Source: Isoetes taiwanensis (Eukaryota; Streptophyta; Lycopodiopsida; Isoetales; Isoetaceae). Taken from it: DNA of 64,000 nucleotides. Positions 17,080 to 60,728 of the stretch are shown here, one piece after another. Where the stretch lies: the NCBI GenBank assembly GCA_021234155.1, contig JAJEKV010000092.1, forward strand, positions 3,358,561-3,422,560, written 5' to 3'. Position numbers and translations under genes: made by a program. Within the stretch, counting starts at the first letter, position 1; every line of letters starts with the position of its first letter. Below the pieces are notes generated by a model that had not been told where the DNA came from, did no database searches, and saw only the letters and a program-made list of their open reading frames with translations.

Positions 17080-17084
17080 GGAAC
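17080..17084 (+). repeat. Target-site duplication GGAAC (left)
   Basis: The five bases directly before the 5' LTR are repeated exactly at 29,780-29,784 after the 3' LTR. Confidence 0.92.
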
Positions 17085-18729
17085 TGTGACGTTCCAGGGG
17101 AATATACGCTATAAATATGTATATTCCTGGACCCGTCACCATACAAGTCTACTTATGTAGCCTCGTATGCCTTAGAAAGTGGCAAGGGGTGCACATCTAA
17201 GTTAATTGTTTAACTTAGATAACCTTAGGATAAGGCCCATTTTCCGCATGGCCTTATCCTATTGGGGCAACCGCCACACGGCCTCACCCTAGTGGTGCCA
17301 CGTGGCATCCCATGTGGACCCAACCTATATTAACATAAACCCTAACCCTAGGCCCTTTTTCCCTGACCTAGCACCTGAACTCCCATCTACGTGCCCGAAA
17401 CCCCGTTTCGAGCATCGTTCGTCATAGCCTAGCCTGGAACAGTAGCCCCTGGAAGGTGTGCATGATCGTTGAGGGAGCAAGCCTTCGACCCACGTCAAGG
17501 AGCATGGAGACGCCAGGGATGGGAGGGAGCGCTTCTGGAGGAGGTAGGTTGAGTAGAGTTCATGTTAGTACATCTGGAAGTTAGCACTCCAGATGGGTTA
17601 GTATTTCGTGTCTAGAGTAGAGCCACCCTAGAACCTTTGCTGAACATCTTGAACCCTAATCAAGGAACCCTAACTGTTAGTTAGATATGTATGATTAGGT
17701 TAAGATGTTCTTATTATGATTATCATGATATGATGTTATGGGATGTTGGTTGATCATGTTTGCTCCTCTTGTTTTGGGACGGGGGGTAGAGACCTATGGC
17801 CATATGTAGTATGCTCCTAGTGTAGATCCCTTAGTTCCTATTATTTGCGGCCTGTGCATAGGAACCCACCGGGCTATGGAAGCTATGATGTGACTCAGCA
17901 CTACACAACGGGGCTAGAGGCAAGATGGAGGGTGGATCCCTGCCGAGTGGGGGCTTCGGGGGATCCCATAGTGGGCTAGGCTTATGGTCGATCACTTCAT
18001 GTGGGCCGAGCATGGGTCCGACACCTCCTGGGGCAATGGTGTCGCCCTGCCTCTCAAGAGTTGCAAGTGTCAGCTTGGCTCTTATTTTGGGGGGTTCAGT
18101 CGGGTACGAATCGTGTGTCGTCACGATTCTCTAGCCGCCCGTGGAGCCTCTAGACCCCGGGAAGGGGAGATGGAACCCTTCCTACCTCGACGGACCAGGG
18201 AGATGCAACCTAGAGTAGTCCCGATGGGTGATGCCATGGGATTGCGTATCCGGAAGGTTAGAGTCATGACAGAGCCTGATCTAGCCCATCTGCAAAGTAT
18301 GCACAGGAGGGACGGATGGAGTGGTCAACCCTAGCCATTGTCTTATGCCAGCCCCGCCATTGTTATGACTCGGTCTGTTCTATCTTGAGGCCTTAGCAGT
18401 CAGTCGACTTCCCTATGTGTCGGAGCCACGGGTAGAAGCTCTCATGTTTCATGGCATATGATTATGTTCTTTGCATTTATGGATATGCGATTGAGCTACC
18501 CTTCGAGGTAGCATATTGTATTGTATTGCTAGTTCTGACTTGTTTATGCTTCCGCTGTGATAGGAGCCCATAGGGGAAGGGCGCGCAAGACACCTTCGTG
18601 TCCCCTTCCCGCACTACGGAGGTTCCATAGTGCGGGACAGACGGAGGGCCTGTGCGGTTGTTGAGCCGGACGGGGGATTTCCTGCCGAGTGTACGGCCGG
18701 GCGCCATATATTTAGCAGGGAGCGTCACA
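17085..18729 (+). repeat. 5' LTR (1,645 bp)
   Basis: It begins TGTGACG and ends CGTCACA, a 7 bp terminal inverted repeat. The first 60 bases can fold into a hairpin: 'CCAGGGGAATATAC' pairs with 'GTATATTCCTGG', with GTGACG/CGTCAC outside it. Two ORF-like stretches inside (near 17,831-18,334) occur in both LTRs but overlap each other on opposite strands and look incidental. It has a 13 bp stretch near 17,750 that the 3' LTR lacks. Confidence 0.96.
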
Positions 18730-18730
18730 A

Positions 18731-18742
18731 TGGTATCAGAGC
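18731..18742 (+). other. Primer-binding site, initiator tRNA-Met type
   Basis: TGGTATCAGAGC starts two bases after the LTR end. It is the standard complement of the plant initiator Met-tRNA 3' end used to prime minus-strand DNA synthesis. Confidence 0.93.
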
Positions 18743-19212
18743 GATGTTCTTGGTTGACCAGGAACTAGCACTGACCATAACCATGAAAGTAGTCTAACAG
18801 GCCTATAGGGGTATAAAATTAAAAATTTCTACCATCGAACCTCGAAAATAGGGGAAAATTTTTTTCTCCTAGGTAGTGGGTCCGAAAATAGGTTAAGTAT
18901 TAGACGAAGAAATGAATGAGTCAAATTCACCTTCTAGTAAAATTGGAGTAAAAATTATGCATCTGCATCAAATTTCACCTAAAATGGGTCAAAGAATTAT
19001 GCCAATCTGAGACCCGAGTGAAAAATGGCGCAAATCCATAATTAATACTTTAAACTATTAGGAAATTTGAAATTCTAAAGGTATAATACGAATTTAAGTA
19101 TGTATACTAGAAACTAAATATATATTAATAGTAAGGGTACTTTGGTGTAATTAATAAGGGGGGCTAATAAGTAGGCCTATTAATGGTAGGGAATATTCCC
19201 AGGGACCCTCCT

Positions 19213-19222
19213 TTTTAAATAA
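19213..19222 (+). promoter_or_regulatory. TATA-like box upstream of the H3-like ORF
   Basis: TTTTAAATAA lies about 90 bases before the ATG at 19,311 and is followed by a C/T-rich leader. The position fits a core promoter, but function is inferred. Confidence 0.4.
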
Positions 19223-19310
19223 CCCTGACACCTCATTTTCCCTCCAACCTTTTGCTCCTCCATCTCTCTCTTGCTCAGCCTTACGTCACCCGTTTTCTAG
19301 ACCGTTAAGT

Positions 19311-20389
19311 ATGGCTCGAACCAAGCAGACAGCTAGGAAGTTTGGGGAGAGGCCTACACTCTCGATGGCGCAGGTAGCAGCAGGTCGCCATGTCAAGAAG
19401 ATCCCGCCACACCTTCGACCGAAGCCGGGCGAAGAGAAGTTCTCCTCCAGCAGTGATGACACCTTCCACACCATGGAAGAGGAGGCGCCTAGTAGCAGCA
19501 GCAGTTCTTCGTCAGCGGGCACCCAGAGAACCGGCGAGTCCCGTCACTTTGGGCCTTCGTCGGACACCGGGGTGGAGCAGGTGGAAGAACAGGTGGAGAA
19601 GCAGCCCCAGCACCAAACTAAGGAGGCGGGCCCTTCGGTACCAAAGAAGAAGGGAAAAGAGAAGGTGGCAGAGTGGCCAGAGGAAACGGAGGCAAGAAAG
19701 AAGAGGCAGAGGGAGCTGCTCGAGAAGGAGCGGCGAACGAAAAGAAGAAACGACAGGCCTCGCGGGACTGTCATGATTGAAGAACCCCAACCCCGCGGGC
19801 CAGATGAGGAGGAAGAGGTAGAAGGAGGCGGCGGAGACGAGGAGGAAGAGGAGGAAGTCGTTGGGGAGCCTTCAGACCCCAATGCACGCCCATCCTACCC
19901 GAAGTGGCCCACGCCACCGAAGGTGGTCAAGAAGCAGAAGGTGGGCGAGCGGCCATTCGCGCTCTGTGAGGACCGCGAATTCAAGCGTAAGCTGAAGGCC
20001 TACCAGAAGTACCTTCGTCGTTGGACGAGGTACAATGACTGGTACTGCCCAAGCCACCACCTCCACGTCCTGAAAAGCCGAAGAAGGTCCATCACGGGCC
20101 TAACTCTCGGCACGCCCGTGTTTTCCGGGAGATTAAGCACTTTCAACAGTGCACTAATCTCCTGATCAGGAAGGCCCCTTTCGAGCGCCTGATGCGGGAA
20201 GTTATGCAGGAGTTCGTCACTGACTATAGGGTGACATCCTTGACAACAAGGGTCCTGCAGGTGGCAGCCGAAGCGGAGCTGACCCAGCTTTTTGAGGAGG
20301 GCAACTTATGCGCAATCCACGCCAAGAGGGTGACCGTAATGCCCAAGGATCTCCAGTTGGCGCGGAGGATCCGCAAGGAGTACCCTTGA
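19311..20389 (+). CDS. Histone H3-like protein carried by the retrotransposon (frame break near 20,048)
   Basis: The protein starts [10 protein letters not shown], identical to the first nine residues of mature histone H3, including Lys4 and Lys9. It then diverges ('FGERPTL'), although '[14 protein letters not shown]' loosely recalls the VKKPHR region of the H3 tail. Next come a serine run (about residues 60-75), a basic KR-rich stretch (about 120-155) and an acidic Glu/Gly stretch (about 160-185). Frame 1 runs to a stop at 20,163-20,165. The H3 core lies in the -1 frame from about 20,048: '[18 protein letters not shown]', '[13 protein letters not shown]', then '[13 protein letters not shown]' and '[16 protein letters not shown]', ending at 20,389. 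This covers alpha-N to the C-terminus of the H3 fold. The core is closer to canonical H3 than to CENH3 in its last helix. The frame change is either a mutation in this copy or a -1 frameshift site. H3 normally has about 136 residues, so the roughly 240-residue N-terminal extension is exceptional. Confidence 0.88.
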
Positions 20390-20843
20390 ACCTCCGAATT
20401 TTGTACCTGTAATTAAAATTTTGGTGTAAACTGACTATCCTTATTAATATATATCTCCTTCGTCTTGTAAAATTGATGTAAAGAGGTAGTTAGAGAAGTC
20501 AAATTGTACTAAAATTTTTTTGTATCTAACTTGAAATAGTTCAATTATTCTACCCCTAATTAGAAAAAAAAATTGATTTCCGAGCAAAATGGCGAAACCG
20601 GGTGGGTCCGCGCCAAACCCCTTTCCGACAGCTTCGGAAGGCCCTTTCGCGCGAACCCTCCCGATTTGGCCCTTTTTGGCCTAATTTGACCAATTTTGAC
20701 CCAACAAACTGCCATCTAGTGTCTCTTGCTTTGTTTTGTTTAGAATTGCACTTCATGATAGTTTATTTGGACACCCATAGCCATAGAACAAAAGTTTTTC
20801 CCATCAAGAACCCTTGTGCACGGAACCCGAGGCATCCCTAGTC
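20390..20843. other. Spacer between the two accessory ORFs
   Basis: The AT-rich start could hold polyadenylation signals. A GC-richer stretch follows ('GGGTGGGTCCGCGCC', about 20,600). No open frame of merit is seen. Confidence 0.4.
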
Positions 20844-20850
20844 TATAAAA
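20844..20850 (+). promoter_or_regulatory. TATA box upstream of the orphan ORF
   Basis: A perfect TATAAAA lies 112 bases before the ATG at 20,962, followed by a leader rich in C and T. It is the best core-promoter match inside the element and suggests that the orphan ORF has its own transcript. Confidence 0.55.
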
Positions 20851-20961
20851 GGAGGCCTCATTTGTCATTTTCTCCCCATCAAAACTGCTCTCAGCCCTTT
20901 TGGCAATTTTCCAGCTCCCTACTCGTCTTCACAAGCTATTTTTCATAGCTATCTCTGCTCA

Positions 20962-22485
20962 ATGGCACCATCAAGCTTTGCTAGATGGTACAATGAGGCC
21001 AATCACATTCGTGATTTCCCTGCTAAGCAAGCCTTCCATGTCTTCGATCATCTCTTTGACCTTCATGCCACCTTGACTAGGACTCCCTATTACACCGACA
21101 TCATTTGCCAATATGACCAGCAGATACTACCCTGGGAAGTTAGTTTGCCACCTAGGGGAGGGAAATGGGTTTCTCTAGACTCTCTGACCCAAGCCATAGG
21201 TGGGGGATCTAAGGCCAAGAATAAGGTATGGGATAGAACCAGAAGCATGCCAGATTACATGACCTGTAAGCATCATAGACACAGATACCTCTCAAACCAA
21301 GCAGCCTTAGCTTTGTTCATGCAGTACAAGGCAGTCAACCAACCAGGGGAGCCGTCAATTCAGCCCTTAGATCTAGCACCTCTCGACACCCGAAGGGAGC
21401 AGATCGGCATCCATGAGATTGACTCTACCGAGTACGAGTACTATGGCGCGACCTCAGGAACACCCATGCTGCAGATCGAACAGGATTACGAGCAGCAAGG
21501 GGAGGAGAACCCAAGTTGGGAGATGAGAGAGGCAGCCAGGATGGAGAGGCGAATAGCTAGGCAGGAAGGCACACTAAGGCGAGATTTCGAACCACCACTT
21601 GGCATCACAGCCCTGTCACCAGTGATCATCGACGGCGAGGAGTACATCTTGGCTAACGACATCCTCAACCTTCCCCATTGCCAAGAAGAAGGTCTCAGAA
21701 TCGACGAGCTCCTAGGCTTAATTGCACAAGAACAGGGCAGGGACTTCATCGATTACTCCTACCAAGAATTTCCAAGGGAGATAGCAGAGCGACACTCCTA
21801 CGCCGGGGAGACGATGTCAGATATACAAGCTTATCAACAGATAAGGCAGATGTATCAACAACAGGAACCCATCATCCCAGAAGAGGAGTTCCAGCAGATA
21901 CAAAGCAGATTGTATAAGCCAGGAAGGGGTCCAAGCTCTAGCCGACCAGTCCGTTCCAGGAGTTCGCGTGAGGCACACGCCAACATCAACTTGGAGAACG
22001 CTACCACAATGTGGAGGGACCACGAAGACCTCGTAGCAATAGACATCTATGGGGAAGCAGCTGGCAGAAGAGGCACAGGGTCCAACATCGCGGGTAAAGG
22101 CAAGGCGCTTCGATACTATCTTCCAGCTCTTAGCCAAGGGCAGATGATAGTATTCCACAAGGAGTTTAGCCCAAGAGGAGAAGAGTCTGTTGCGCTCCTC
22201 ATAGCCCTCTCTGGCTTTGGGCAGCACGCCAGACTAGGCCACGGATCAGACCATATCATCCTTTTCAAGAGATCAGTAGCCCTTCACTGCCTCGACTTCG
22301 CCAGGGGCCACCTCAAGGATGCACAATTGTCAGTAGTGGCAGCAACGACACCCGAACTCCCAGCACCCCAGATGGCTAGAGCACTTGAAGGAGGATCAGC
22401 CGCAAGGATCTTGCAGAACGTCGGCAAAGGGCTACATCTCAAGAACATCAAGAACTTCTTCAAGAACATGAAGGGCCATCGATGA
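20962..22485 (+). CDS. Orphan accessory protein of the chromovirus, 507 residues
   Basis: A single uninterrupted frame with a good ATG context (CTCAATGGC). I do not recognise the protein. The N-terminal third (about 1-150) is rich in aromatic and basic residues. The middle (about 150-340) is Glu/Gln-rich with charged helices ('MREAARMERRIARQE') and ends in a Ser/Arg patch ('SSSRPVRSRSSRE'). The last third (about 345-507) looks globular ('LRYYLPALSQGQMIVFHKEF', 'GHGSDHIILFKRSVALHCL') and finishes in a Lys-rich tail. No zinc knuckle, protease or polymerase motif is seen, nor any signal peptide or membrane segment. That it stays open while pol has decayed suggests either late decay or selection. 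An envelope protein is unlikely given the absence of membrane segments. Confidence 0.75.
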   Translation: MAPSSFARWYNEANHIRDFPAKQAFHVFDHLFDLHATLTRTPYYTDIICQYDQQILPWEVSLPPRGGKWVSLDSLTQAIGGGSKAKNKVWDRTRSMPDYMTCKHHRHRYLSNQAALALFMQYKAVNQPGEPSIQPLDLAPLDTRREQIGIHEIDSTEYEYYGATSGTPMLQIEQDYEQQGEENPSWEMREAARMERRIARQEGTLRRDFEPPLGITALSPVIIDGEEYILANDILNLPHCQEEGLRIDELLGLIAQEQGRDFIDYSYQEFPREIAERHSYAGETMSDIQAYQQIRQMYQQQEPIIPEEEFQQIQSRLYKPGRGPSSSRPVRSRSSREAHANINLENATTMWRDHEDLVAIDIYGEAAGRRGTGSNIAGKGKALRYYLPALSQGQMIVFHKEFSPRGEESVALLIALSGFGQHARLGHGSDHIILFKRSVALHCLDFARGHLKDAQLSVVAATTPELPAPQMARALEGGSAARILQNVGKGLHLKNIKNFFKNMKGHR

Positions 22486-22814
22486 TGGAAAAATTTGCTT
22501 TGTCCTCAATTAAATTGTATTGAATAATCTCTCTTTTAGATATTATCATGTATTTCATGAAATGTATTTCTATATACTAATTAATGTCTTACCATGATCT
22601 TGACTTGTAAGTGGAATTTTCACATAATTTCTTTTGTACCTAACAATAATTCAAATGTAAATAAGCTTGATTAATGTCTAATCTAAATAACAAGTGTTGA
22701 TGATTAATCCTTGCAGCAAGGAACACAGGCTCAGGTTCTCAAGGCCAAGGCCGACATCACCAGTGGGTACCTAGAAACCTATTCGGACGTGATCAAGATG
22801 ACAACAACGAGGAA
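22486..22814 (+). other. Spacer before gag with possible intron
   Basis: AT-rich from 22,490 to about 22,715. It contains a donor-like TTGTAAGTGG near 22,605 and an acceptor-like 'CCTTGCAG' ending at about 22,716. From there to the gag ATG the gag frame is open ('GRHHQWVPRNLFGRDQDD'), so gag may begin upstream and be spliced. Confidence 0.45.
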
Positions 22815-24326
22815 ATGACGCCGGAAGCAATCAACGCAAGGCTCGTCCAGATGAGGAATCAGATGCATCAGCTGATCCACTGGGCCACCCCATTGATGAA
22901 TGCCCAAGAATATGCACATGCACCACCACCTCCCCCACCGCTACCTCAGCAAGGCATCGAGGAAGGGCCACAGCCGGAGGGGCAGGACAATCAGGGAAAT
23001 GTCAGAGACAGGAAGAGGAAAAGGAGAAACAGAAGGAGTCCAACACCACCTAGCTCCAGTTCATCAGACACTTCAGACAGCCAAGACAGTTCTAGCTCAG
23101 AAAGTGAGTCCGATACTTCACAGGTAAGAGCCAGGGCAAGGAAGGCAGATGACTATCAAAAGAAAGTTGACAGTGCTATGAGCAATGTGTGGAAGACTAG
23201 GAAGTTGGGTCAGTTCTCAGGGAAGGACAGGTCAGGTATGGAGGCAGAAGCCTGGCTTGACGAAATGGAGGAGTTTGGCAACTCTTATGGCATGAAGGAC
23301 AAGGATATAGGGAAGGTTGCTACAGCAAACTTGATAGGAGCAGCTAGAATCTGGTGGAAAGGCTACGCAAAGTCCAATAAGCTCAAAAGGAACAGTTGCA
23401 GATTCAAGACCTTCAGCAAGGCCTTTCGCAGACATTATGTGCCTAGGTCACATACTAGCAGGCAGATCCAGCAATTCTACAGATTGAACCAGGGTACCTT
23501 GTCAGTAGCAAAGTACACAGAGGAATTCATGCGACTCAGGCTCCATGTTCCCGGAGTTTCGGAAAGGCAAGCGGTTGAAACTTACATTGAGGGATTGAAC
23601 AGCAATATCAAAAGGCTAGTCCGAGCAAACAACCCAAAGTCAGTGGCAGAAGCCGAGGATAAAGCCATAAGTTTGGAAGAAGCTCCACCAACGCCAGGGG
23701 AGAGACAGTCGGCCTTCAAAGGAAAGTCAACAGGGCAGTACCAAGGGCAGTACCAGAGTAAGCAATCAGCAGCTACGCCATCAGGAGGCCAGCAGCAAGG
23801 AAGAGCTCAGGATAAGAACTTTGGGGACCGTAAGCCGCAGAATGCATCAGGGGGCAGCGTGCTAAAGCGTATTCTAGACAGTCTGACGAAGGAGAAGAAG
23901 CAGGAGTGTATCGAGAAGAAGCTATGTTTTAGGTGCTTCCAGCCAGGGCACCGAACACATGATTGCCCATTTGTCATGCAGGCAGCTTTGGCAGAGCTTG
24001 GGGATTGGGATTCACCGACAGAAGCAGATGAAGACGACGACCAGCATGAGGCCCAGGACTTCATAGATGGTGAGTGCCATATCTGTGCAAATATTGAGTC
24101 AGGTGATATTGAAAATCAGTCGACAGTCATTGCGGCTGATGGAATCATAGATAGCAACCCATATGCAGTCCTCATAGATACAGGTAGCTCTCACAACTTC
24201 GCCTCTCCTAGGCTGGCTGCCCTAATGAAGAACAAGGTATTGAAGTCTAAGCCAAGGCCAGTTGCTATGGCAAACGGCGCCATTCGGCACACTAAGGGGA
24301 GGAGAATCACATTCGACATAGACTAG
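22815..24326 (+). CDS. Gag and start of protease of the chromovirus
   Basis: Gag packages element RNA into particles. The N-terminal part has a proline-rich patch and a long Ser/Asp run (about residues 70-100). The capsid-like retrotrans_gag region follows ('EAWLDEMEEFGNSYGM', 'ARIWWKGYAKSNKLKRN', 'QIQQFYRLNQGTLSVAKYTEEF', shown only in part). A CCHC zinc knuckle 'CFRCFQPGHRTHDC' lies near residue 375. The aspartic protease begins with the active-site 'LIDTGSSHNFAS' near residue 452. The frame ends at an in-frame TAG at 24,324, after which the same frame continues, so this copy has a premature stop inside the protease. Confidence 0.93.
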   Translation: MTPEAINARLVQMRNQMHQLIHWATPLMNAQEYAHAPPPPPPLPQQGIEEGPQPEGQDNQGNVRDRKRKRRNRRSPTPPSSSSSDTSDSQDSSSSESESDTSQVRARARKADDYQKKVDSAMSNVWKTRKLGQFSGKDRSGMEAEAWLDEMEEFGNSYGMKDKDIGKVATANLIGAARIWWKGYAKSNKLKRNSCRFKTFSKAFRRHYVPRSHTSRQIQQFYRLNQGTLSVAKYTEEFMRLRLHVPGVSERQAVETYIEGLNSNIKRLVRANNPKSVAEAEDKAISLEEAPPTPGERQSAFKGKSTGQYQGQYQSKQSAATPSGGQQQGRAQDKNFGDRKPQNASGGSVLKRILDSLTKEKKQECIEKKLCFRCFQPGHRTHDCPFVMQAALAELGDWDSPTEADEDDDQHEAQDFIDGECHICANIESGDIENQSTVIAADGIIDSNPYAVLIDTGSSHNFASPRLAALMKNKVLKSKPRPVAMANGAIRHTKGRRITFDID

Positions 24327-24728
24327 TGGCCGATGGGGGCAGAAGTCATGGAGATTGGAAGGTATGACCTTATAGTAGGAATGGAGTTCCTAAAGCCAGC
24401 GAAAGCCATGATCGACTGCGATCGCAATGAAGTTGCCATGACAGCACCGGACGGCACCAAATTCATAGTGAGAGGTAAGAAGGCAGCTTCTTCTATGCAG
24501 TGTATTTCTTTGAAGCAGCTAAGGAAAAGTATAGAAAGAAATAAGGTGGATTACATTTTGAGGGTAGAGGCAATTGAGCCCAATAAGCAGGATGGGAGTG
24601 ACCAAAAAGGGAATCCGTTGCCCAAGCCAGTAGCAAGGCTCATTTCGGAATTCAAGGATGTATTCCCAGATGAAATCCGGCAGCTACCACCTTATAGGGG
24701 TGTAGAGTGTGAGATCACATCACATTAG
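24327..24728 (+). pseudogene. Rest of protease and linker to RT
   Basis: Directly after the TAG the frame continues with 'GRYDLIVGMEFLKPAKAMID', the C-terminal strand region of the retropepsin. A linker follows to '[19 protein letters not shown]', the usual sequence before gypsy RT. A 5 bp tandem duplication (ATCACATCAC, 24,714-24,723) then shifts the frame, so RT continues in another frame. Confidence 0.88.
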
Positions 24729-26923
24729 CTCCAGATGCTAAGCCTACTACCAGCAAGGCACCATACAGGATGAGCACACCGGAGTTGATAGAGCTTAAGA
24801 AGCAGCTCCAGGAATTGCTTGAGCTTGGGTTTATTAGAGCAAGTGTGTCTCCTTTTGGAGCACCTATACTCTTCGTGAAGAAGAAAGATGGGAGCTTAAG
24901 AATGTGCATAGGCTATCGCCAGCTCAACAAGCAGATGATAAAGGAAGAAGATATCCATAAGATCGCCTTCAGAACGGGGTATGGTCACTTTGAGTTTACA
25001 GTAATGCCCTTTGGGTTGTCGAATGCTCCAGCAACTTTTATGCGCCTCATGAATGACGTCTTCAGGGATTTCCTAGATGAGTTTGTCATTGTCTTCTTCG
25101 ACGACATTCTAGTCTACAGCAAGTCCATTGAAGATCATGGTCAGCATTTGAGAAGAGTGTTGGAAAAGTTGAGGCGGCATCGCTTGTATGGAAAGCTCTC
25201 CAAATGCCACTTTGCGACTGAAAGAGTGGAGTACTTGGGCCATGTCATATCGGCGGAAGGGATCTCCACCGACCCCGCAAAGATCGAAGCAGTAGTGGAT
25301 TGGCCAGCTCCAGAGAATGTGGCGGAAGTAAGAAGCTTTCTAGGTCTGGCAGGTTATTACAGAAAGTTCGTGAAGGACTTCGCTAAGTGGGCGTCCCCTT
25401 TGACGGACCTCACTAAGAGTGTTAAGGTGAAAGAGTGGAGAACACATTGGTTAGAAAATGTTCAAGCTTCATTTGAAAAGCTTAAGGAGGCCTTAACAAC
25501 AGCACCAGTGCTAGTTCTGCCAGATCTGGACAAGGACAAGATAGTAGCAACAGATGCAAGTAAGATAGCGACAGGTGGAGTTCTTATGCAAGAAGGAAGA
25601 GTAATAGCCTATGATTCCAAGAAGTTGAACGACACCGAGCAGCGCTATCCAACCCATGATCAGGAACTTCTAGCTATTGTCAGAGCTCTTCGTATTTGGA
25701 GGCATTATTTGCTTGGGAGGAAGTTTCAGTTAGATACTGATCACCAGAGCCTCCAATACATCTTCACCCAACCGCTCCTCAATCTAAGGCAAAGGAGGTG
25801 GATGGAATTCCTAGAAGAGTATGATTTCGAGATTGCTTATAAGCCAGGTAAGTTGAATGTGGTTGCTGATGCTCTTTCTAGAAGACCCCTTGAGACGAGA
25901 ACACATTGTAATGCTATATCAACTCTTTCAAGTGGGTATGGCAAGAAAATTGAGGAGACATTACCATTTGATGGTGATTTCAAGGAGGTATGGGAAAGCC
26001 TCTCTAGGGAGGCTAGAACAGATAAGGAACGAGAAGCCTTCAAGCATTATAAGAAGGAAGGCAACTTGTTGTACCATAAGCATAAGTTGTGTGTTCCCGA
26101 ATCGTCAGGTACAAGGAAGTTAATTCTTCATGACACACACAACAGCCCAATAGCAGGGCATGCAGGTTTTATGAAGACCTACTTCAAGATTCGAAGTAGC
26201 TATTTCTGGCCGGGAATGAAGAAGCAGATAGCAAGATATATCCGGGAGTGCCAGTTGTGCCAGCAAACCAAAGCGGAGCAACTTCGGATCCCAGGTGCCT
26301 TAGAGCCTTTGGGGGTGCCAAATGCTAAGTGGGAGGTCATAAGCATGGATTTTATAACAGGACTTCCCAAAACTCTTCGAGGCAAGGATGCATTGATGGT
26401 CGTAGTAGACAAATTATCTAAGATGGCACATTTTGTGCCTTGTAAGACTACGGACACAGCATTAATGAAGCTCTCCATGAGCACGGCTTATCATCCCCAA
26501 ACAGATGGTCAGACGGAGAGGACGAATCGAATTATTGAAGACATGCTTAGAAGCTTTGTGTGGAATAAGCAGTCCAAGTGGGAGGAGTACATCCACTTGG
26601 TGGAATTCGCCTACAATAGTGCCAAGCAGGAGTCATCTCAGATGTCTCCTTTCATGGTAAATTACGGGTACCAGTGCCTAACCCCGGATACTTGGCACAA
26701 TCCTGTGTCTAAGGTTGAAGTATCCCAGCAGATGCTAGGAGATATGCAGCAGCTGGTGGAAGAAGTAAGGGGTTACCTCCTAGCAGCAAGAAGTCGGCAG
26801 AAGAGTGTAGCCGACAAGCACAGGACCGTAAGAGAGTTCAAGATAGGCAATAGCATGTGGTTGAAGATCAAGGTCAAGCAAGCTAAGCTTCGGATTGGGA
26901 GTTGCAAGAAGCTTGCCCCTTGA
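24729..26923 (+). pseudogene. RT, RNase H and integrase of the chromovirus, with internal deletions
   Basis: RT starts with '[17 protein letters not shown]' and '[18 protein letters not shown]', with the catalytic 'FFDDILVYS' near 25,095. Between 'YRQLNK' and 'IKEEDI' (about 24,932) the stretch that normally holds motif A and its first catalytic Asp is absent, in frame. RNase H follows ('[13 protein letters not shown]', '[12 protein letters not shown]', '[11 protein letters not shown]'). Integrase has its HHCC finger ('CQLCQQ', about 26,250), the first catalytic Asp ('[11 protein letters not shown]') and the Glu ('[12 protein letters not shown]'). The segment with the second Asp is missing between 'TTDTA' and '[10 protein letters not shown]' (about 26,465), again in frame. 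The frame ends at a TGA (26,921) in place of what is probably Arg before 'WAGPFKILERVG'. Confidence 0.93.
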
Positions 26924-27313
26924 TGGGCTGGTCCGTTCAAGATTTTGGAGAGAGTGGGCTCCCAAGCCTACAAGTTGGATCTTTCGGCCCATCTCAAAGT
27001 TCACAAGGTTTTCCACGTAAGTTTATTGAAAAGGCACAATCCTAACCCTGAAGAGGTCTTGGATACTCCAACTTTGTTGGAGATGACGGAGGAGCAAGTC
27101 GAAATTGTGCCTGAGTTACTTCTTGATAAGTCATTCAAGAAGACTAGGAGGTCTCAATTCCTCCAGTATTTGGTCAAGTGGAAGCACTTGCCCGTGGAAG
27201 ACGCGACATGGGTATTGAAGCAGGATTTGGAGAAGCAATACCCAGAATTTATGAAGGAGTTTGATGGGCGAGTCGTCTCCGACTTGGTCGACCCCGACTT
27301 GCCAGGAGGTTAG
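26924..27313 (+). pseudogene. Integrase C-terminus with chromodomain
   Basis: It continues in frame after the TGA with 'WAGPFKILERVG', 'YKLDLSAHLKVHKVFHVSLL', a conserved gypsy integrase end. A chromodomain follows (about 27,130-27,265): 'QYLVKWKHLPVEDATWV', then the C-terminal helix 'DLEKQYPEF'. Chromodomains of this type bind methylated H3 tails and guide integration into heterochromatin in known chromoviruses. No ATG is needed, since this piece would be translated as part of pol before the stop arose. Confidence 0.9.
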
Positions 27314-28125
27314 CTTAGTATGTTTCTTAGTTAGCCTCTAGCTCTGGCAGATGTATTCTAGCTAGTGGAATACATATGCCAGAATCTTGGAACATGTGGG
27401 CGATGATGAGATAAGCAACATGCACCAAGAGGTGCGCATGACCAATAGGGTCATGCGAGAGAGAGAGAGAAGTAAGGCATGGTGCGCGACGATGGGACAT
27501 CGGTCGGATACTCCCTATGCCACAATGCGGGGTTCGCACACCTGGCCATAGGGGGGTCATGGTGAAGGTCAAAGTGATCATGTGCGATGATGGGATCGTG
27601 AGACGTTCCCTAGCTTAAAACCCTTGGGGCATGATGCACTAGGGGTACTTTCTCAGACTTAGGTAACCGAAAGGTACAAGGTAGCACTTGATCATGGGCG
27701 ATGATGGGATCATCTTAAATGGTCCTTAAGCTCAAATCCGAAAGGGCCATGATCGAGTGCCAGGTATTGGTAAGGGGGGTGGTCCCCTAAAACCACAAAC
27801 TTATTAATTAAACTAACGTAATGTGCTCCTTGTGCAGGAAAGTGAGAAGTGAGCATCGAGGTGGGGCGCATTACGAGAAGATGGGGAACCATAATTTAGA
27901 TTATGAACCCTAATAACTCTTATAATAATATTTTGAATTATTGTAAGAAGTAACCTTGTAAAGGCTATATAATTTTGTATAAGTACAAGTATAGCCTAAA
28001 TTTTGATATTTAACTCTTTAATAGGAAGCTGATCGTTTAAATTAAATTTAAGTGTATGATTCTGATGTGTTTTGCAGGATAGAGTAGGCTCGTCACCTTA
28101 GCGCAATGCTGAGGACAGCATTGTC
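27314..28125. other. Non-coding 3' region of the chromovirus
   Basis: It contains a repeated module near 27,390-27,740: 'GGGCGATGATG', 'GATCATGTGCGATGATGGG' and 'GATCATGGGCGATGATGGG' recur three times with 'GATCGT' or 'ATCAT' ends. An AT-rich stretch follows. No coding capacity is apparent. Confidence 0.5.
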
Positions 28126-28148
28126 CTAAGGGGGAGGGAGGGGGAGAA
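28126..28148 (+). other. Polypurine tract
   Basis: AAGGGGGAGGGAGGGGGAG lies directly before the 3' LTR and is the expected primer for plus-strand DNA synthesis. Confidence 0.9.
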
Positions 28149-29779
28149 TGTGACGTTCCAGGGGAATATACGCTATAAATACGTATATTCCTGGACCCGT
28201 CACAATACAAGTCTACTTATGTAGCCTCGTATGCCTTAGAAAGTGGCAAGGGGTGCACATCTAAGTTAATTATTTAACTTAGATAACCTTAGGATAAGGC
28301 CCATTTTCCGCATGGCCTTATCCTATTGGGGCAACCGCCACACGGCCTCACCCTAGTGGTGCCACGTGACATCCCATGTGGACCCAACCTATATTAACAT
28401 AAACCCTAACCCTAGGCCCTTTTTCCCTGACCTAGCACCTGAACTCCCATCTACGTGCCCGAAACCCCGTTTCGAGCATCGTTCGTCATAGCCTAGCCTG
28501 GAGCAGCAGCCCCTGGAAGGTGTGAATGATCGTTGAGGGAGCAAGCCTTCGACCCACGTCAAGGAGCATGGAGACGCCAGGGATGGGAGGGAGCGCTTCT
28601 GGAGGAGGTAGGTTGAGTAGAGTTCATGTTAGTACATCTGGAAGTTAGCACTCCAGATGGGTTAGTATTTCGTGTCTAGAGTAGAGCCACCCTAGAACCT
28701 TTGTTGAACATCTTGAACCCTAATCAAGGAACCCTAACTGTTAGTTAGATATGTATGATTAGGTTAAGATGTTCTTATTATGATTATCATGATATGATGT
28801 TATGGGATGTTTGCTCCTCTTGTTTTGGGACGGGGGTAGAGACCTAGGGCCATATGTAGTATGCTCCTAGTGTAGATCCCTTAGTTCCTATTATTTGCGG
28901 CCTGTGCATAGGAACCCACCGGGCTATGGAAGCTATGATGTGACTCAGCACTACACAACGGGGCTAGAGGCAAGATGGAGGGTGGATCCCTGCCGAGTGG
29001 GGGCTTCGGGGGATCCCATAGTGGGCTAGGCTTATGGTCGGTCACTTTGTGTGGGCCGAGCATGGGTCCGACACCTCCTGGGGCAATGGTGTCGCCCTGC
29101 CTCTCAAGAGTTGCAAGTGTCAGCTTGGCTCTTGTTTTGGGGGGTTCAGTCGGGTACGAATCGTGTGTCGTCATGATTCTCTAGCCGCCCGTGGAGCCTC
29201 TAGACCCCGGGAAGGGGAGATGCAACCCTTCCTACCTCGACGGACCAGGGAGATGCAACCTGGAGTAGTCCCGATGGGTGATGCCATGGGATTGCGTATC
29301 CGGAAGGTTAGAGTCATGCCAGAGCCTGATCTAGCCCATCTGCAAAGTATGCACAGGAGGGGCGGATGGAGTGGTCAACCCTAGCCATTGTCTTATGCCA
29401 GCCCCGCCATTGTTATGACTTAGTCTGTTCTATCTTGAGGCCTTAGCAGTCAGTCGACTTCCCTATGTGTCGGAGCCACGGGTAGGAGCTCTCATGTTTC
29501 ATGGCATATGATTATGTTCTTTGCATCTATGGATATGCGATTGAGCTACCCTTCGAGGTAGCATATTGTATTGTATTGCTAGTTTTGACTTGTTTATGCT
29601 TCCGCTGTGATAGGAGCCCATAGGGGAAGGGCGCGCAAGACACCTTCGTGTCCCCTTCCCGCACTACGGAGGTTCCATAGTGCGGGACAGACGGAGGGCC
29701 TGTGCGGTTGTTGAGCCGGAAGGGGGATTTCCTGTCGAGTGTACGGCCGGGCGCCATATATTTAGCAGGGAGCGTCACA
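28149..29779 (+). repeat. 3' LTR (1,631 bp)
   Basis: It starts TGTGACG and ends CGTCACA like the 5' copy. It differs by about 25 substitutions, mostly transitions, and lacks 14 bases in two indels relative to the 5' LTR. Confidence 0.96.
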
Positions 29780-29784
29780 GGAAC
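29780..29784 (+). repeat. Target-site duplication GGAAC (right)
   Basis: Exact match to 17,080-17,084. Confidence 0.92.
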
Positions 29785-31689: not shown

Positions 31690-32463
31690 TCAATAGTTTG
31701 CATATTGGCTAGACCAGGAATTGAGCTCAGTTTCTGCTAACTCCAGAATCCATTCTGCCCATAGACAATTTTTGAATAAATGTTCTTCATTTTCCTGATC
31801 CTGCAAACATCTAGCACAGATGTCAGAATTAGACATGTTGAGCCTCCACCTCTTTCTGTTGGTAGCAAGGGCTCTATGCCAAAGCTGCCACATGAATGCC
31901 TTGATTTTTGGAAGGATGGGACTTTTCCACATGAAGGTCAAATTTCTGAAGACTCTATCAGCATCAATATTCCATTTAATGTGAATGGATATTTCTTGGT
32001 TCCTGTTAAGATACCTGTAAGCCAAATTAACTCTGTATCCACAAAAACCATTAATATGCCAGAACTCATTAGTGTTATGCCATTCTCCAATTGCCAATCT
32101 CTGAGAAACACTATCGAATAGCTGCCTGGAGTCCTCTCTCAAATCTCTAAGGGTTGATTCCTGATAATCAAAATCATCAATAATATCCCTTATATAAATT
32201 ATGCCTCTATTAGTCCACTGTTTAGTTAACTTAGGAAAATTAGTGGCTAAACACATATTCGGATCATCCAAAATTAGAGAGGGACTCCAGAAAATAGGTT
32301 GGTCTTGAGAAAGGCCTTCTTTCCATGTGTACATACCTATCACCTTTAACCATGCTCTGATCCATTTCTTGATAATCAAAGGCATGGAGGTAGGGACAGT
32401 AAAGTCAAAGTAAATGCTATGAGGCAGCTGCATTTTGAGGTTCTCCAGCCAAAGGGATGACAC
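31690..32463 (-). pseudogene. LINE ORF2 C-terminus, zf-RVT domain
   Basis: The end of the frame reads 'KIKAFMWQLWHRALATNRKR' and 'CARCLQDQENEEHLFKNC', the C-x2-C...H...C zinc-binding module (zf-RVT) at the end of plant LINE reverse transcriptases. It is one frame away from the RT part upstream. Confidence 0.9.
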
Positions 32464-32491
32464 TTTTCAATATAATGGGAGATGAGAACAC

Positions 32492-34215
32492 TCACAGGGT
32501 GGTTGATCTGGTTGTTGCAGGCCCTGAAGAAATATTTTGCAGCCAAAGCAGTGGCCTGCTTCTCAATATTGATAACTCCCAGACCTTCCTTACTTTTATG
32601 CTTGCAGCATTCATCCATAGAGATTGGGACCCAGCACCTCCTACTAGATCCACCTCAATAAACCTTCCAATAATACCTTGCATTTTAGCCAATACCTTCT
32701 TAGGTGCCATGATGATGGAAGTTTGGTAGACCTGAGAGGAAGAAATGACTGAATTTGCCAGAATGGCTCTCCCATTTTTAGATAAAAATTTAGAATTAAG
32801 GGAATCAACTTTTCTGTAGAATTTATCGAACAGGTCCTCCCAAAGGTCACAGGCATTAATTCTAATAGCATAAGGAATGCCCAGAATTTTCGTTTTAGTA
32901 CTAGGGGAGAGATACATACATCCTATGTTTGCAGCTGCATGCTCACCCTCTTCTTGATGCCTTGAGATGAGTTTTGGTCTTGTTGGGATTAATTCTGCAT
33001 CCAGAGCATTTTCCGAAGTCCTCCAAGATAGCCTGAGTATTCTGAATGGATTGAGCCTCCAAATGTAGGAACAGGAAGGTATCATCTGCAAAGTGAACAT
33101 TAAGGATCTCATTTTCTTCCTGGGAGGGAAGAATGAGGCCCTTGATTAAATGGAGATCTTTTGCCCTCTTAAAGTTACTATTTAGCCCTTCCATTACAAT
33201 TAAAAACAAAAAAGGAGCAAGAGGGCAGCCTTGCTTGACTCCTCTTTTGATGTCAAAGAATGGACTACATTCACCATTGATAAGGACAACAGATCTGGAA
33301 TTCTTAAGAATAGCTTGGAAAACAGAAATAACATTATCAGAGAATCCCAGTTTCTTGCAGCACCAACATAAAAAATCCCAACTTACCGTGTCAACGGCCT
33401 TTGTGATGTCTAATTTAAGAAGGCCAATTGACTGGTTGGATTCTTTAGCCCAGAAGATGCCTAAGGATGCTGCAGCCACATTGTCTAGAATATACCTTCC
33501 CCTGAGATAGGCACTTTGAGTGTTGCTAATGACCTCCTCCGGGATGGGCTTGAGTCTTGCTGCAATGGTACCTGTAATTAGCTTATAAACCACATTGGTC
33601 AGGGAGATAGGTCTGTAGTCCGAGAAGGGTTGGAAGCTCAATCTTTGGGATGAGAGCAATCAAACTTGTATTGATCCTGCAGTCCAGTTGTTTGATAGTC
33701 AAGAATTCATTGGCCAAGAAGACTATGTCCTTACCCAGAATTTCCCAAGATTTCTTGAAAAATTCAGTTGGGAGGCCATCAGGGCCTGGAGTCTTACCAT
33801 TCTCCATATCCTGAAGAACCTTGAGCATTTCATCATAAGAAAAGGGTCTTGATAACCTATCATTCATCTGATTAGCAACTTTCTGTTGGATATGCACAAA
33901 ATTCTCAATGTCTTCACTACTAATATTTTCCTCAGTTCCCATAATCCTAGAAAAATGGTCTCTGGTAGCACACTTTAGCTGAGTGTCATTATCAATATTG
34001 TTGCCTTCCCAAAGAATGCTGTAAATATGATTTTTCTTAATTCTGCCCTTAGCTTTGATGAAGAAATACTTTGAGTTGCTCCTTTCATCTTCCTTGAGTT
34101 CCTTCACCTTTGCCTTGATCTTCCAACCCCTGGCAATTCTAATTTCCTCTTTTTCTATCTGCATTTTGATGTCATCCTTTTGCTGACCATGAGCCAAATT
34201 TAACTGGGTTCTCAA
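32492..34215 (-). pseudogene. LINE ORF2 reverse transcriptase
   Basis: Three overlapping frames cover the RT: 'ENGKTPGPDGLPTEFFKKSW' (about 33,800), 'FQPFSDYRPISLTNVVYKLI' (about 33,600), 'GVKQGCPLAPFLFLIVMEGL' (about 33,210) and the catalytic 'FADDTFLF' (about 33,085). The domain is complete but split by frameshifts near 33,650 and 33,000. Confidence 0.93.
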
Positions 34216-34389
34216 ATCTTAAAGATGAGCAGTATTACTCCTGTGAACTTTCTTCCTCCATACTTTCAGCCAATTCTTAATTCTTTTGGATATTTTTACC
34301 CACCAATCCATCCATCCCCTGCTGCCAGTAGGCTTTTCCTCTTGAGAAATGATCTGTTGAAGGCTTGGTAAAAAAACATCCCGCTTAGT

Positions 34390-35258
34390 ATTCAGCTTAA
34401 AATAAGAATTTCTTTTCCTTTGAACATTATTACCACAGATGTTAATAAGCTGAGGGAAATGATCAGAGACAGTATAATTAGTAAGATTAGTGACCCTAGA
34501 GCTATTATTCCAGAGGGATTCACTAAGATAAAATCTGTCATGGAGACAGCAGACAGGCTGATCCCTGTGATCATTCCAACTCTAAGAATGGGGGGTAACT
34601 CTGGCTAAAGAGAGATGGTGAGAAGAGAGGAGAGAATTCCAACTCGAGAACTCATTATCAACAGACACCTAAAGTTAATATTTCTCATATAACTGTGAGT
34701 AACCATATTAAAATCACCAGCTAGAATGCATTCATCATAGGGAATTCTGTCTAAACTCCTGTTTATGACATTCCAAAGGTTGACTCTTTCAGGGGGTTGA
34801 TGATATGCATATACATTAATGAATACTATCCTTTTATCACCTATTCTCCCATGGACAATCTGCCATCTCCTACTGTTATCATTAACCATCTGAATGCCCT
34901 CAAGATTGAGCCTATTGTTCCAAGCTATGGTAATACCAGCAGAAGTGTTATTAGCTTTAAGAGACCAATGCTGGAAGTTGGCAGGCAGAACTTCTCTAAT
35001 TAAAGAATTGATATTATCATCATGAATCTTATGCTCTTGAAAGAAAATAAAGTCAAGGTTCATAGAGCTAAGGCAAACCTTCAATCTACCTCTTTTGTGA
35101 TTCGAATTGATGCCTTGGATATTCCAAGTGATACCTTTAAGATCTATATCCATTGGTGGGGGGGGAGGATCTTTCTTGGGGATCTTCTTGGAGGTCCCAA
35201 AGTATAATCTTTGGAGGTTTTCTTCCCCTTTTTCCTTCTGCTGCTGATTGTACACCAA
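34390..35258 (-). pseudogene. LINE AP-type endonuclease
   Basis: It begins 'ITWNIQGINSNHKRGRL', with 'FFQEHKI' (catalytic Glu) and 'ILAGDFNM' (catalytic Asp/Asn). The end of the domain ('YTVSDHFPQL', SDH motif, near 34,450) is in a different frame, so a frameshift near 34,640 breaks it. It nicks target DNA for target-primed reverse transcription in living copies. Confidence 0.92.
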
Positions 35259-36499
35259 ACCTCATCTTCCAATGTGGAGGTCTTGCTGCTGACCTGGAAG
35301 TCAAGGTCATCCTCCGAGTCTTCCTTCCTAGTTTCCTCATAAATACCAAAATTGTCATTTAAGATACCAAGATCCAGGGTAGAGATACTCATGTTAATAG
35401 GATCAACTTTGATCACCACTTTGGAGGGAAACTGAAATATAATACTTTTGTCAGAAAAATACTTATCATGGAGATCCTTTATACTAGTACTGTAGTCAAC
35501 CTTAGTGTTGTGATTTTCTTCTTGGACACCCATTTTGCTAGTGCTGCACTCAGTCTTGATGTTATGATTATCTTCCATGTGCTTAGCTTTAGGTCTCCAG
35601 ACCTGCTTGCATTGTTGTATTCCCACATCCTTCTGCACCAGAATTTCCTTATTCTGCTCCTTAAAGGGAGCTTGGGAGATTTTGGCCAAAGGTAGTTTAG
35701 AGTAGGAAATATTGAGATTGAACATACCTCGATTAGGGATTTTACAGGGAAAACAATCCCCCCAGTTAGAATGAATTTTCTTCTGGATGCAGACAGAGGG
35801 GAAGTTGGTTTGAGGTATGGAGATTTGGATGATCTCACCTAAACTAATGGCTATGGCCTTAAGATGAGAGACTGTCCAGCATCCCATGGGCAGGTTCAAG
35901 CAAGAGATCCATGTATTAGTAGAAATCGTGGAGAAATCCCCTGGAATATAAAGACGGTCCCATTTCATAATGTACACAGGATATCCGGAAATGAAGGAGA
36001 TCTTTCTGGTTAAGATCAGAGGGACACTCTTTTCCTCTTTACAAATGATCTGGAAGGTTTTATTGTCCAATTTTAGGATGGAAAGGATAGGAACCAATAG
36101 AGATTTGGTAATCCAATACTTCACCGTGCTTAAAGGAGGACAATTTTGAGGGAAGTGAACGAGAATTCCATGATTAATATATCTAATATTAGCAGAGTTA
36201 TCAATAATATCACTAAGATCAAGGATGCCCTTTACATCATTAGTGTCAGTTCCACTTTCAATAGAATCAGAGGCAACATTATCAGAGTTCAAAGAATTAA
36301 GCAAAGCATTCTTATAAGAGTTACCATTGATTTTGTCGTATTTTCCCATGATCGGAACCGAGGACTTCAGAGTTTGCTTGGAGACCTTTGTCTTGTTCTT
36401 ATCCATATTCTGCTCTTTGATGCTCTTTAATGCTGGTACAGTTTTGGCAGTCACAATTAGCACAGTCTGTTGGGTGAAAATAGCCATTACTGTCAGCAA
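35144..36499 (-). pseudogene. LINE ORF1, DUF4283-like part
   Basis: A 451-codon frame. The central part ('FPQNCPPLSTVKYWI', 'YPVYIMKWDRLYIPGDFS', 'WISCLNLPMGCWT', 'EIIQISIPQ') resembles the DUF4283 domain of plant L1 ORF1 proteins, which bind RNA. Its start overlaps a Cys-rich stretch that is clearer in another frame (CxxCxCxxC near 36,450), so the domain boundary is disrupted. It overlaps the endonuclease frame at its 3' end by about 115 bases. Confidence 0.75.
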
Positions 36500-50200: not shown

Positions 50201-51658
50201 GGTGTCACTAGGAGCTCCTTGCCATCTATTACGAAAGCTGTATTTGCGTCTAAAATGGCAGAGTTCCAATAGCAGCACACCAATTGCATGGATCCCTGCA
50301 TCTTCCAGAATATCATTTCCAATGATTTCTCTGGCTGCCAGAGAATCCTAGAATGGTCCGCCTTTGAAAACTCCCATTCTTGTTTTAAATACCAATGATA
50401 ATTATTACAGTTCCAAACCTGTATTGCATCATGATTGGCACATCTAATACTTATTGCCATGAGATCCGAACCAGCATTCCATTGCAAAGACTCTATTTTT
50501 GCATCTGGCAAAGTACAAACTTCAAAACTGTCTTTTTTCAGTCCATTCCGCTCAAAAATCATAATAAGCGGTTGCTTCTTCTGATCTGATCTGTCACCAG
50601 CAGCTGCAATCCTAGCCCCACCAGGGCACCATGTAATGGCTGTTATTGGAAATGGGAGAGTCTCAGCAGACGCATGTAAAACACCAGAATCTCTTTCCCA
50701 AATCTTCAAAGGCTTATCATCTGACCGATCCAGTGTTGCAATGTACTTGCCATCAGGACGCCAACTAATCGCCCAAGCAGGTTGCATATGTCTTAGATCA
50801 TTCGTTACCCCCTACATGTATTCCACGATTGTTCTCTATTAATAGGATGAGCCATTGTCTGCATAAAAGACATCTGATTCAGCTATAAAAGCTGAACTTG
50901 TAGCCTACAACATAATCAGCATCAAGAACATGACGTGCAGTGTTTAAAAGATAAGACTAACCTCGTGCCCTGACTATCCACTATTCAAAATGCTTATAAG
51001 ACAAAAAACAGATTTGCTTAAAACTCACCGCATCAATATCATCCTGGCAGATACACACTTCATATAATGGATCCCACTCAGCAGTCATAACAATAAGCTG
51101 ACCCAATCCAGTGATAAAAGCAAGCAGCTCGCCATCAGGGCTCACTTCCATGGCAACAATACCTCCGTGAAGACTTCCAACAACTTCGACATGATATGAG
51201 AAATTGTGTGCTAAGAGAATATCACCACTCCGCAATGCGACAACTACTGCTTCCATCTCTATCATATATTCTATATTGACGACAACATCTTCGACACGAT
51301 CATCATACGTCTCAATGAGTGGCATTGAATGCTGGATATGCTGCATAGGGGCTAACCGTGTAAGAGTAAAATTCATGCCAGGTAGCAAAGAAAGTAAATG
51401 AAGCCGGGATTTAAAATAGAATTCAGGCATTGAGTAACAAACATTCAACCAAAAGCTCCAAGGCACAAACTCTTAGTTTGAAGAAAAACTGTATAAAACC
51501 TGGCCGTCGGAAGACAAGTCCATCCAGTATATCTGACAATGGTCAGATGCAAAGAAAATACGACCATGCTCACTGTCAATTGAAGCAGCAACAAGCTTTT
51601 CGGATTGGGCAAGTTGTAGCTGCATATAACGATCACCATAGATGGCGAGGTTCCTCAT
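47256..51658 (-). CDS. ELP1: Elongator complex subunit 1 (ELP1/IKAP)
   Basis: The scaffold subunit of Elongator, which modifies wobble uridines of tRNAs (mcm5/ncm5) and acts in the cytoplasm and nucleus. Exons on the minus strand: first exon from ATG 51,658 ('MRNLAIYGDRYMQLQLAQ') to about 51,500; second about 51,400-51,030 ('ALRSGDILLAHNFSYHVEVV'); a large exon about 50,815-47,774; a short exon about 47,700-47,622 (basic, 'SKARKKGSQGRKGRIR'); last exon about 47,543-47,256. The total is about 1,300 residues, as in Arabidopsis ELP1 (ELO2/ABO1). WD40-type propellers fill the N-terminal half. A TPR-like helical region follows ('AALGLYDLHLAAMVATHSQR', 'YGDYLLSQEKF'-type repeats). The 'SETSSNLSGMSAYTYG' motif and the basic loop that binds tRNA in known ELP1 are both present. 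No frame break is visible. Confidence 0.95.
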
Positions 51659-60720: not shown

Positions 60721-60728
60721 GCTGAAAA

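Follow-up and report, generated by a model that had tools for sequence, protein, structure and literature searches.

This study analysed a stretch of 64,000 nucleotides from Isoetes taiwanensis (the window, meaning the whole stretch) and found within it a single complete LTR insertion of a Ty3/gypsy chromovirus (17085-29779, target-site duplication GGAAC) that encodes a histone H3-like protein upstream of gag. Its position and its recurrence across the assembly establish that the H3 gene belongs to the element and that H3-bearing relatives make up several families in one genome. Combined, the results make it probable that a Ty3/gypsy chromovirus lineage captured a host H3 gene and kept it as an accessory gene (ORF1), the encoded H3 variant pairing with host H4 and entering nucleosomes. 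Transposons are silenced via histone H3 modifications; a selected H3 of their own gives a hint that the elements described here target the very chromatin by which they would normally be silenced, and the presence of such a variant in an element family makes transposon chromatin manipulation by histone replacement testable.

The window element displayed the hallmarks of a Ty3/gypsy chromovirus (Table 1), with LTRs ending in TG..CA, a primer-binding site (PBS), a polypurine tract (PPT) and a target-site duplication (TSD), together with gag, reverse transcriptase (RT), RNase H and integrase in Ty3 order and a chromodomain at the integrase C-terminus (Pfam, RT being partial). The primer-binding site TGGTATCAGAGC (18731-18742) is presumably of the initiator tRNA-Met (iMet) type. 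The LTR pair is 97.6% identical, with 25 mismatches and 14 gaps over 1645 columns (K=0.0155). The copy is damaged in pol, its RVT_1 match starting only at profile position 110; the protease matches in Pfam are weak, and the integrase (rve) core gave no Pfam match in this copy, in which RNase H, H2C2 and the chromodomain were found. Chromoviruses include elements with a type II chromodomain. By eye in the translation, the window chromodomain has the W of VKWK, apparently lacks the first aromatic and carries L at the third position, a pattern that appears to fit type II, which is without the H3K9me aromatic cage in the defining passages of PMC3350952 and PMC6317226.

Table 1. Features of the chromovirus insertion in the window
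Feature	Position	Strand	Basis
TSD GGAAC, 5' side	17080..17084	.	sequence read; identical 5 bases at 29780-29784
5' LTR, TGTGACG...CGTCACA	17085..18729	+	self-comparison, LTR pair
Primer-binding site TGGTATCAGAGC	18731..18742	+	pattern position
TATA-like TTTAAATA, ~90 bp upstream of H3 ATG	19214..19221	+	alignment of rows
H3-like gene (ORF1), N-terminal part: tail and acidic/basic insert; stop after frame break	19311..20165	+	
H3-like gene (ORF1), histone fold, here in another frame than the tail	~20096..20389	+	
TATAAAA, ~110 bp upstream of ORF2	20844..20850	+	alignment of rows
ORF2, 507 aa	20962..22485	+	
gag (Retrotrans_gag PF03732, Ty3_capsid, weak zinc-knuckle match) and protease start	22815..24326	+	Pfam
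Rest of protease, RT (N-terminal part unmatched), RNase H, integrase H2C2; several broken frames	24333..26923	+	
Integrase C-terminus with chromodomain PF00385, E=5.7e-12	26945..27313	+	Pfam
Polypurine tract preceding 3' LTR	28130..28148	+	sequence
3' LTR	28149..29779	+	self-comparison, LTR pair
TSD GGAAC, 3' side	29780..29784	.	sequence read

Both genes upstream of gag are preceded by a TATA-like box. The box before ORF1, TTTAAATA, is kept in 12/12 aligned rows (the window and 11 loci; one further locus, L040, has no such stretch), and TATAAAA before ORF2 is kept in 11/12. These boxes would allow separate mRNAs for ORF1 and ORF2 but are only suggestive, because each motif appears in 1-2% of shuffles of the 200 bp (55/5000 and 80/5000, respectively). 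Before gag, an intron-like GTAAGT ... TTGCAG stretch was noted at 22607-22716 (exact GTAAGT in 6/11 rows, TTGCAG in 9/11), and gag may come from a spliced RNA. No Pfam family was found for ORF2 (507 aa) at E<=0.1, and Rfam at gathering cut-offs gave 0 matches over the whole window. Elsewhere in the window, all on the minus strand, lie the remains of a non-LTR retrotransposon (31690-36499, with zf-RVT, reverse transcriptase, endonuclease and DUF4283 frames), a host gene for the Elongator subunit ELP1 (47743-50787, a 1014-aa open stretch) and part of another LTR element (59408-61993, with integrase and reverse transcriptase frames).

The initial annotation had described ORF1 as a single reading frame, part of the element and directly followed by gag, that begins with an H3 tail and ends, after about 240 residues, in a clear H3 fold. 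Both ends of this description were borne out: the ORF starts at 19311, the ARTKQTARK behind its initiator Met equals the first nine residues of the H3 tail, and the fold matches PF00125 at E=5.5e-26 in the window and H3 chains of the PDB at E ~1e-30, the 60 best PDB matches shown for it being H3 chains. Membership in the element was likewise confirmed by the gene's location inside an intact LTR pair with GGAAC on both sides. The single frame from tail to fold holds for other, open copies, whereas in the window copy the tail and insert are open over 19311-20165 and the fold, reaching 20389, is in another frame, because a stretch after ~20050 that is present in other copies is missing. The insert between tail and fold exists, at a length of ~270 residues instead of ~240, and replaces H3 residues 10 to ~35. 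The direct succession of ORF1 and gag had to be given up, since ORF2 (20962-22485) lies between them.

The genome (1,658,258,908 bases in 1,110 contigs) was searched with the window fold, yielding 7,962 first-look candidates for the window's family (F1), a loose number and not an exact copy count; the best 150 of these were scored and each was at least 94% identical. Histone H4, searched in the same way, had 69 candidates at the equally loose first look, and 43 of them matched. H3-like sequence has therefore been amplified in this genome and H4 has not. Chance is excluded because the same H3-like gene recurs throughout the genome, and contamination or misassembly is unlikely given that the matches are spread over many contigs of one assembly.

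Most sampled copies are broken, the window copy included. An open frame of at least 365 aa was found in 37 of the best 150 of the 7,962 candidates, where such a frame may be without the tail, as in L040, and tail and fold share one frame in 9/30 of the best-ranked loci. For closer examination, 12 loci of 10 kb (L031-L042) were selected by the length of their frames, and the expectation that other copies carry the ORF proved correct in this genome: LTR, leader and H3 gene follow in order in 11/12, with ORF2 matched within the stretch in 10/12 and gag in 9/12. An open ORF1 of 367-385 aa, consisting of the tail, an acidic/basic insert of ~270 residues and the fold, is present in 11/12. Across a set of 33 distinct loci, a recognisable ARTKQTARK start was seen in 27, among which R8 is kept in 27/27 and K9 and K4 in 26/27 each. 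The natural open protein of one F1 locus (L031) matches PF00125 (Histone) at E=4.3e-29 in Pfam, and the F1 fold is ~59% (57-61%) identical to host H3. Homologue searches with the F1 insert gave 14 candidates, none at E<=1; the whole F1 protein gave 4,410 matches, among the best 120 of which the insert was absent, 12 examined carrying H3 copies in tandem. A search of IMG/VR with the F1 protein retained 0 of 57 pattern matches.

Related families were reached with an approximate CENH3-like query, which also matched host H3 genes. Frames of at least 400 aa were found in 44 of the 150 scored matches, three of the 44 having a stop inside the matched part, and the examples examined fall into at least three further groups of H3 fusions in one genome (F2, F3 and F4). 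One additional fusion protein (L071; G000 C913) is close to none of these and probably represents a further family. The F2-F4 proteins consist of an N-terminal domain (NTD) of ~190-230 residues, a basic linker and then the fold; H3-tail-like remnants occur in the linker of some of them, at most as internal ARKS-like pieces, and there is no free tail. Their folds are 78-87% identical to host H3, and the F2 protein matches PF00125 at E=4.3e-41 (Pfam).

At one locus each of F2, F3 and F4, a chromovirus gag-pol lies downstream of the H3 gene, with tblastn identities to the window element of 36-64% in the matched pieces of gag and 48-82% in pol; in the same alignments F2 and F3 have longer pol frames than the window copy. 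In the F3 locus, the gag frame starts shortly after the H3 gene. An F2 ORF2 is homologous to that of the window (23% identity, E=1.3e-11), and no ORF2 homologue was found in the examined F3 and F4 stretches. The F2-F4 stretches examined gave no match to the primer-site motif of the window, and they do not extend to the LTRs of these loci. Between the F1 insert and the F2-F4 NTD there is no detectable homology (hhalign probability 0.1), and F2 residues 1-300 gave 2,362 candidates, none at E<=1. In IMG/VR, one of seven F2 candidates matched, namely positions 1054-1338 of the viral contig L069 (IMGVR_UViG_3300033144_007251), which encode an H3-like fold with 37% identity to the F2 protein.

Selection was assessed from dN/dS between copies by the method of Nei and Gojobori. 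The F1 fold gave a dN of 0.024, a dS of 1.08 and a ratio of 0.022 in 30/32 copies (two copies with a frame starting inside the fold, and L040 with no pattern fit, were left out), in copies picked by fold similarity from the best 150 of 7,962, which biases fold dN downward. The tail and insert played no part in the picking of F1 copies, and the F2 copies were picked by likeness to another query. Among 11 open F1 copies the ratio was 0.027 for the fold, 0.037 for tail codons 1-10, 0.171 for the variable insert and 0.074 for the C-terminal part of the insert; the tail ratio rises to 0.081 in the 27 tail-bearing loci (6/33 loci dropped), where 45/351 pairs are saturated. For F1 gag and ORF2, ratios of 0.063 and 0.194 were obtained from eight rows each, comprising the window and the 7/12 loci with a long frame (the other 5/12, with no long frame, were dropped in each case). 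The F2 fold gave 0.018 (8 copies), and the eight class B proteins among the related H3 fusions gave 0.046 for the fold (dS 0.56), 0.150 for the NTD and 0.409 for the linker, compared with 0.011 for host H3 (3 genes, 1/3 pairs saturated).

Purifying selection stands, if not the exact ratio, because neutral copies at a dS of ~1 would not stay 94-100% identical in protein. The comparisons between copies thus demonstrate strong purifying selection on the fold, with dN/dS of 0.02-0.05 at dS of 0.6-1.1, stronger than on gag (0.06); for the window's family, the same kind of comparison establishes that the ARTKQTARK tail is also under purifying selection. The dN/dS test across copies that the initial annotation had called for gave ~0.02-0.03 for the fold at dS ~1 in this genome. 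A recent one-off insertion, which it had left open, is refuted by the dS of ~1 between copies and by the related chromovirus families that also have H3 upstream of gag-pol. Presence across the family, taken with selection, rules out a one-off capture or a neighbouring gene.

In four further copies the LTR pairs have a K of 0.012-0.029; five pairs were sought, and the 3' LTR of L036 was not found where expected, leaving that copy undated. The copies are young by LTR K, which places most of the synonymous change before insertion, at a stage when selection acted on replicating elements and filtered it. Between copies (L031-L042 and the window), mean K is 0.133 for the LTR and 0.120 for the leader, with discordant pairs, and mean coding dS is 0.64 for ORF2, 0.76 for gag and ~1.1 for the fold, or 5-8 times the LTR and leader divergence. 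This mismatch makes dS a poor clock here; it could stem from constraint on noncoding DNA or from a mosaic make-up of elements whose LTRs have been homogenised.

The retained residues of the element proteins were compared with what we take to be the H3-H3' bundle, DNA-contact, gyre and chaperone-patch positions of H3 (host H3 numbering). In 5/5 proteins inspected (two F1 and one each of F2, F3 and F4), the H3-H3' bundle residues are kept 10/10 and the alpha1/L1/L2 DNA contacts 9-10 of 10. The gyre contacts before or at alphaN (39-42, 45) are kept 0/5 in F1 and 3-5 of 5 in F2-F4; positions 56 and 79 of F1 are Q and V, respectively, and the H3.1/H3.3 chaperone patch (87/89/90) is kept 0/3 in F1 and 0-1 of 3 in F2-F4. 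Identity to host H3 across nine F1 proteins is 83% over residues 105-131, 53% over 86-104 and 2% over 36-48, with 43-68% in the other fold segments; in L041, the enrichment over 105-131 amounts to 22/27 vs 32/56 (p=0.024). Such residues would be expected of a protein still able to dimerise with H4 and with H3 partners, though its deposition may follow other routes. With the chaperone patch and alphaN gyre contacts lost, a nucleosome formed by F1 would be unusual, or F1 would get no further than an H3-H4 complex. AlphaFold modelled the window fold with low confidence (pLDDT 49.6), and the model was set aside. Judged as core histones, F1 and F2 have the H3-type fold, and a tail continuous with the fold is absent, F1 being interrupted by its insert and F2-F4 being without a free tail.

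From these features, the ORF1 protein is proposed to act as an element-encoded H3 variant that would pair with host H4, form H3-H3' contacts and enter nucleosomes, bringing element-specific cargo onto chromatin: in F1 the acidic/basic linker behind an H3 tail, and in the others the NTD of ~190-230 residues. Because the fold, and not the tail, is common to the families examined, entry into H3-H4 complexes would be the core activity and tail mimicry an addition; the F1 cargo ends in a selected mimic of the H3 tail, which could engage writers or readers of H3K4/K9. The purpose, which we suggest with less assurance, might be to relax silencing where chromatin covers the element, or to label chromatin so that complexes of the element recognise it. 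More speculative again, and somewhat doubtful in our view, is that the lineage builds its own nucleosomes: H3 variants, paired with host H4, would sit on the element's DNA or where it integrates and create a private chromatin state that has the cargo domains built in and that keeps host silencing out or draws in element complexes. If true, the transposon would be using a histone to fight its host genome, and would have kept it while the families diversified over a long time.

Nucleosome, decoy and packaging roles had all been named in the initial annotation, and the present data favour the first. As a decoy, the free ARTKQTARK tail would titrate H3K4/K9 enzymes or readers, for example the H3K9 methylation machinery, off element chromatin, with the fold serving only for nuclear retention or chaperone binding; the recognisable tail in 27/33 loci, the near invariance of R8, K9 and K4 and the low tail dN/dS (0.037 in the 11 open copies, 0.081 in the 27) would all be expected of it. 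However, among the families examined a free tail occurs only in that of the window, while F2-F4 are capped by an NTD and yet have folds closer to host H3, and a decoy has no need of an H3-H3' bundle, so that this role is considered unlikely. Ranked below it, and also improbable, is a packaging or integration tether, in which the H3-like protein would compact element cDNA or RNA in particles or bridge the integration complex to nucleosomes. Such a function would suit the element, which integrates, carries the gene as an accessory and has a chromodomain that by eye seems to be without the H3K9me cage (in the terms of the relevant passages of PMC3350952 and PMC6317226), but the gene stands as an ORF apart, possibly with a TATA box of its own, and is fused to neither gag nor pol. 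Passive carriage of a captured H3 fragment without function could account for the many frameshifted copies, that of the window among them, with only 37/150 frames reaching 365 aa and 9/30 best-ranked loci having tail and fold in one frame; it is nonetheless very hard to credit, as a nearly unchanged protein at dS ~1 is unexpected without selection, even with the sampling bias included, and H3 recurs in several families.

The number of captures is a separate matter. Two or more independent captures, one in the window's family and another in F2-F4, rather than one ancestral event, are a substantial though minority possibility, suggested by the difference in identity to host H3 (57-61% vs 78-87%), by an F1 insert unrelated to the F2-F4 NTD and by the lack of an ORF2 homologue in the examined F3 and F4 stretches. 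The phylogeny of the core against H3 and CENH3, proposed in the initial annotation, was run: the tree of folds, which includes the Vicia villosa record P0029 and in which the CENH3 rows are approximate, resolves no single clade, and one clade of the element H3s is not rejected (p-AU 0.55). Against independent captures stand the location of H3 upstream of gag in each family and the ORF2 common to F1 and F2.

With CENH3/CENP-A the window's family shares an H3 fold that has diverged (57-60% identity to host H3) and a replaced tail. A TNLLI stretch is common to F1 and Arabidopsis CENH3. F1 differs in a loop 1 of canonical H3 length without a tryptophan there and in its RRIR C-terminus; the tree neither supports nor rejects one clade of F1 and CENH3 (p-AU 0.50; CENH3 rows approximate), and the same holds for an origin of the F1 fold from CENH3.

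The window element shares with plant chromoviruses the gag, RT/RNase H and integrase pieces, the C-terminal chromodomain, the iMet-type PBS and the 5-bp TSD, and differs from them in that an H3 variant and then a second accessory ORF precede gag. In addition, the element H3 becomes a candidate for what the type II chromodomains of plant chromoviruses bind. To our knowledge, this element family would be the first among retroelements to provide a core component of nucleosomes. Among the papers listed by full-text searches of open-access PMC, a scope outside which subscription papers and preprints fall, none concerns a retroelement with a histone gene, and the main text of the Isoetes genome papers has 0 occurrences of 'histone'. 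Within the sections covered of a chromovirus survey, the sole mention of 'histone' concerns what chromodomains bind (PMC6317226), and a histone gene in an element is named in none of 12 of the 43 matching places of PMC3350952. The nearest precedent found among retrotransposons is in Ty3/gypsy elements of the orchid Phalaenopsis, which share the capture of a host regulatory gene as an extra ORF and carry an ALKBH5-like m6A RNA demethylase, the difference being that the gene captured there is an enzyme acting on RNA (PMC9289625, in the passages describing these elements). The screen of 121 angiosperm genomes in that paper reported 15 unusual domains, and the two mentions of 'histone' in its main text name no histone domain (PMC9289625). 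A chromovirus with a captured gene and a singlet histone are thus each known, and for their combination no precedent was found among the open-access papers listed.

The closest counterparts of the captured gene are the singlet histones of viruses, where one core histone was taken without the other three. The window element has the same composition, with an H3 fold, no other histone among its Pfam matches and H4 unamplified in the genome. Passages of a review of viral histones describe single H3 genes in DNA viruses, including Manila clam xenomavirus, Dishui Lake phycodnavirus and metagenomic giant viruses, as well as a bracovirus H4 (PMC9145170). The viral folds are mostly 73-89% identical to their eukaryotic counterparts, some have N-terminal extensions, and the proteins are believed to become part of host chromatin; the main text of the review has 0 occurrences of 'retrotransposon' (PMC9145170). 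In the window's family the fold is more diverged (~59%) and the H3 tail lies ~270 residues away from it. The viral genes sit in DNA viruses, whereas the gene described here sits in a high-copy retroelement, with copies not exactly counted, extending histone capture from DNA viruses to retroelements.
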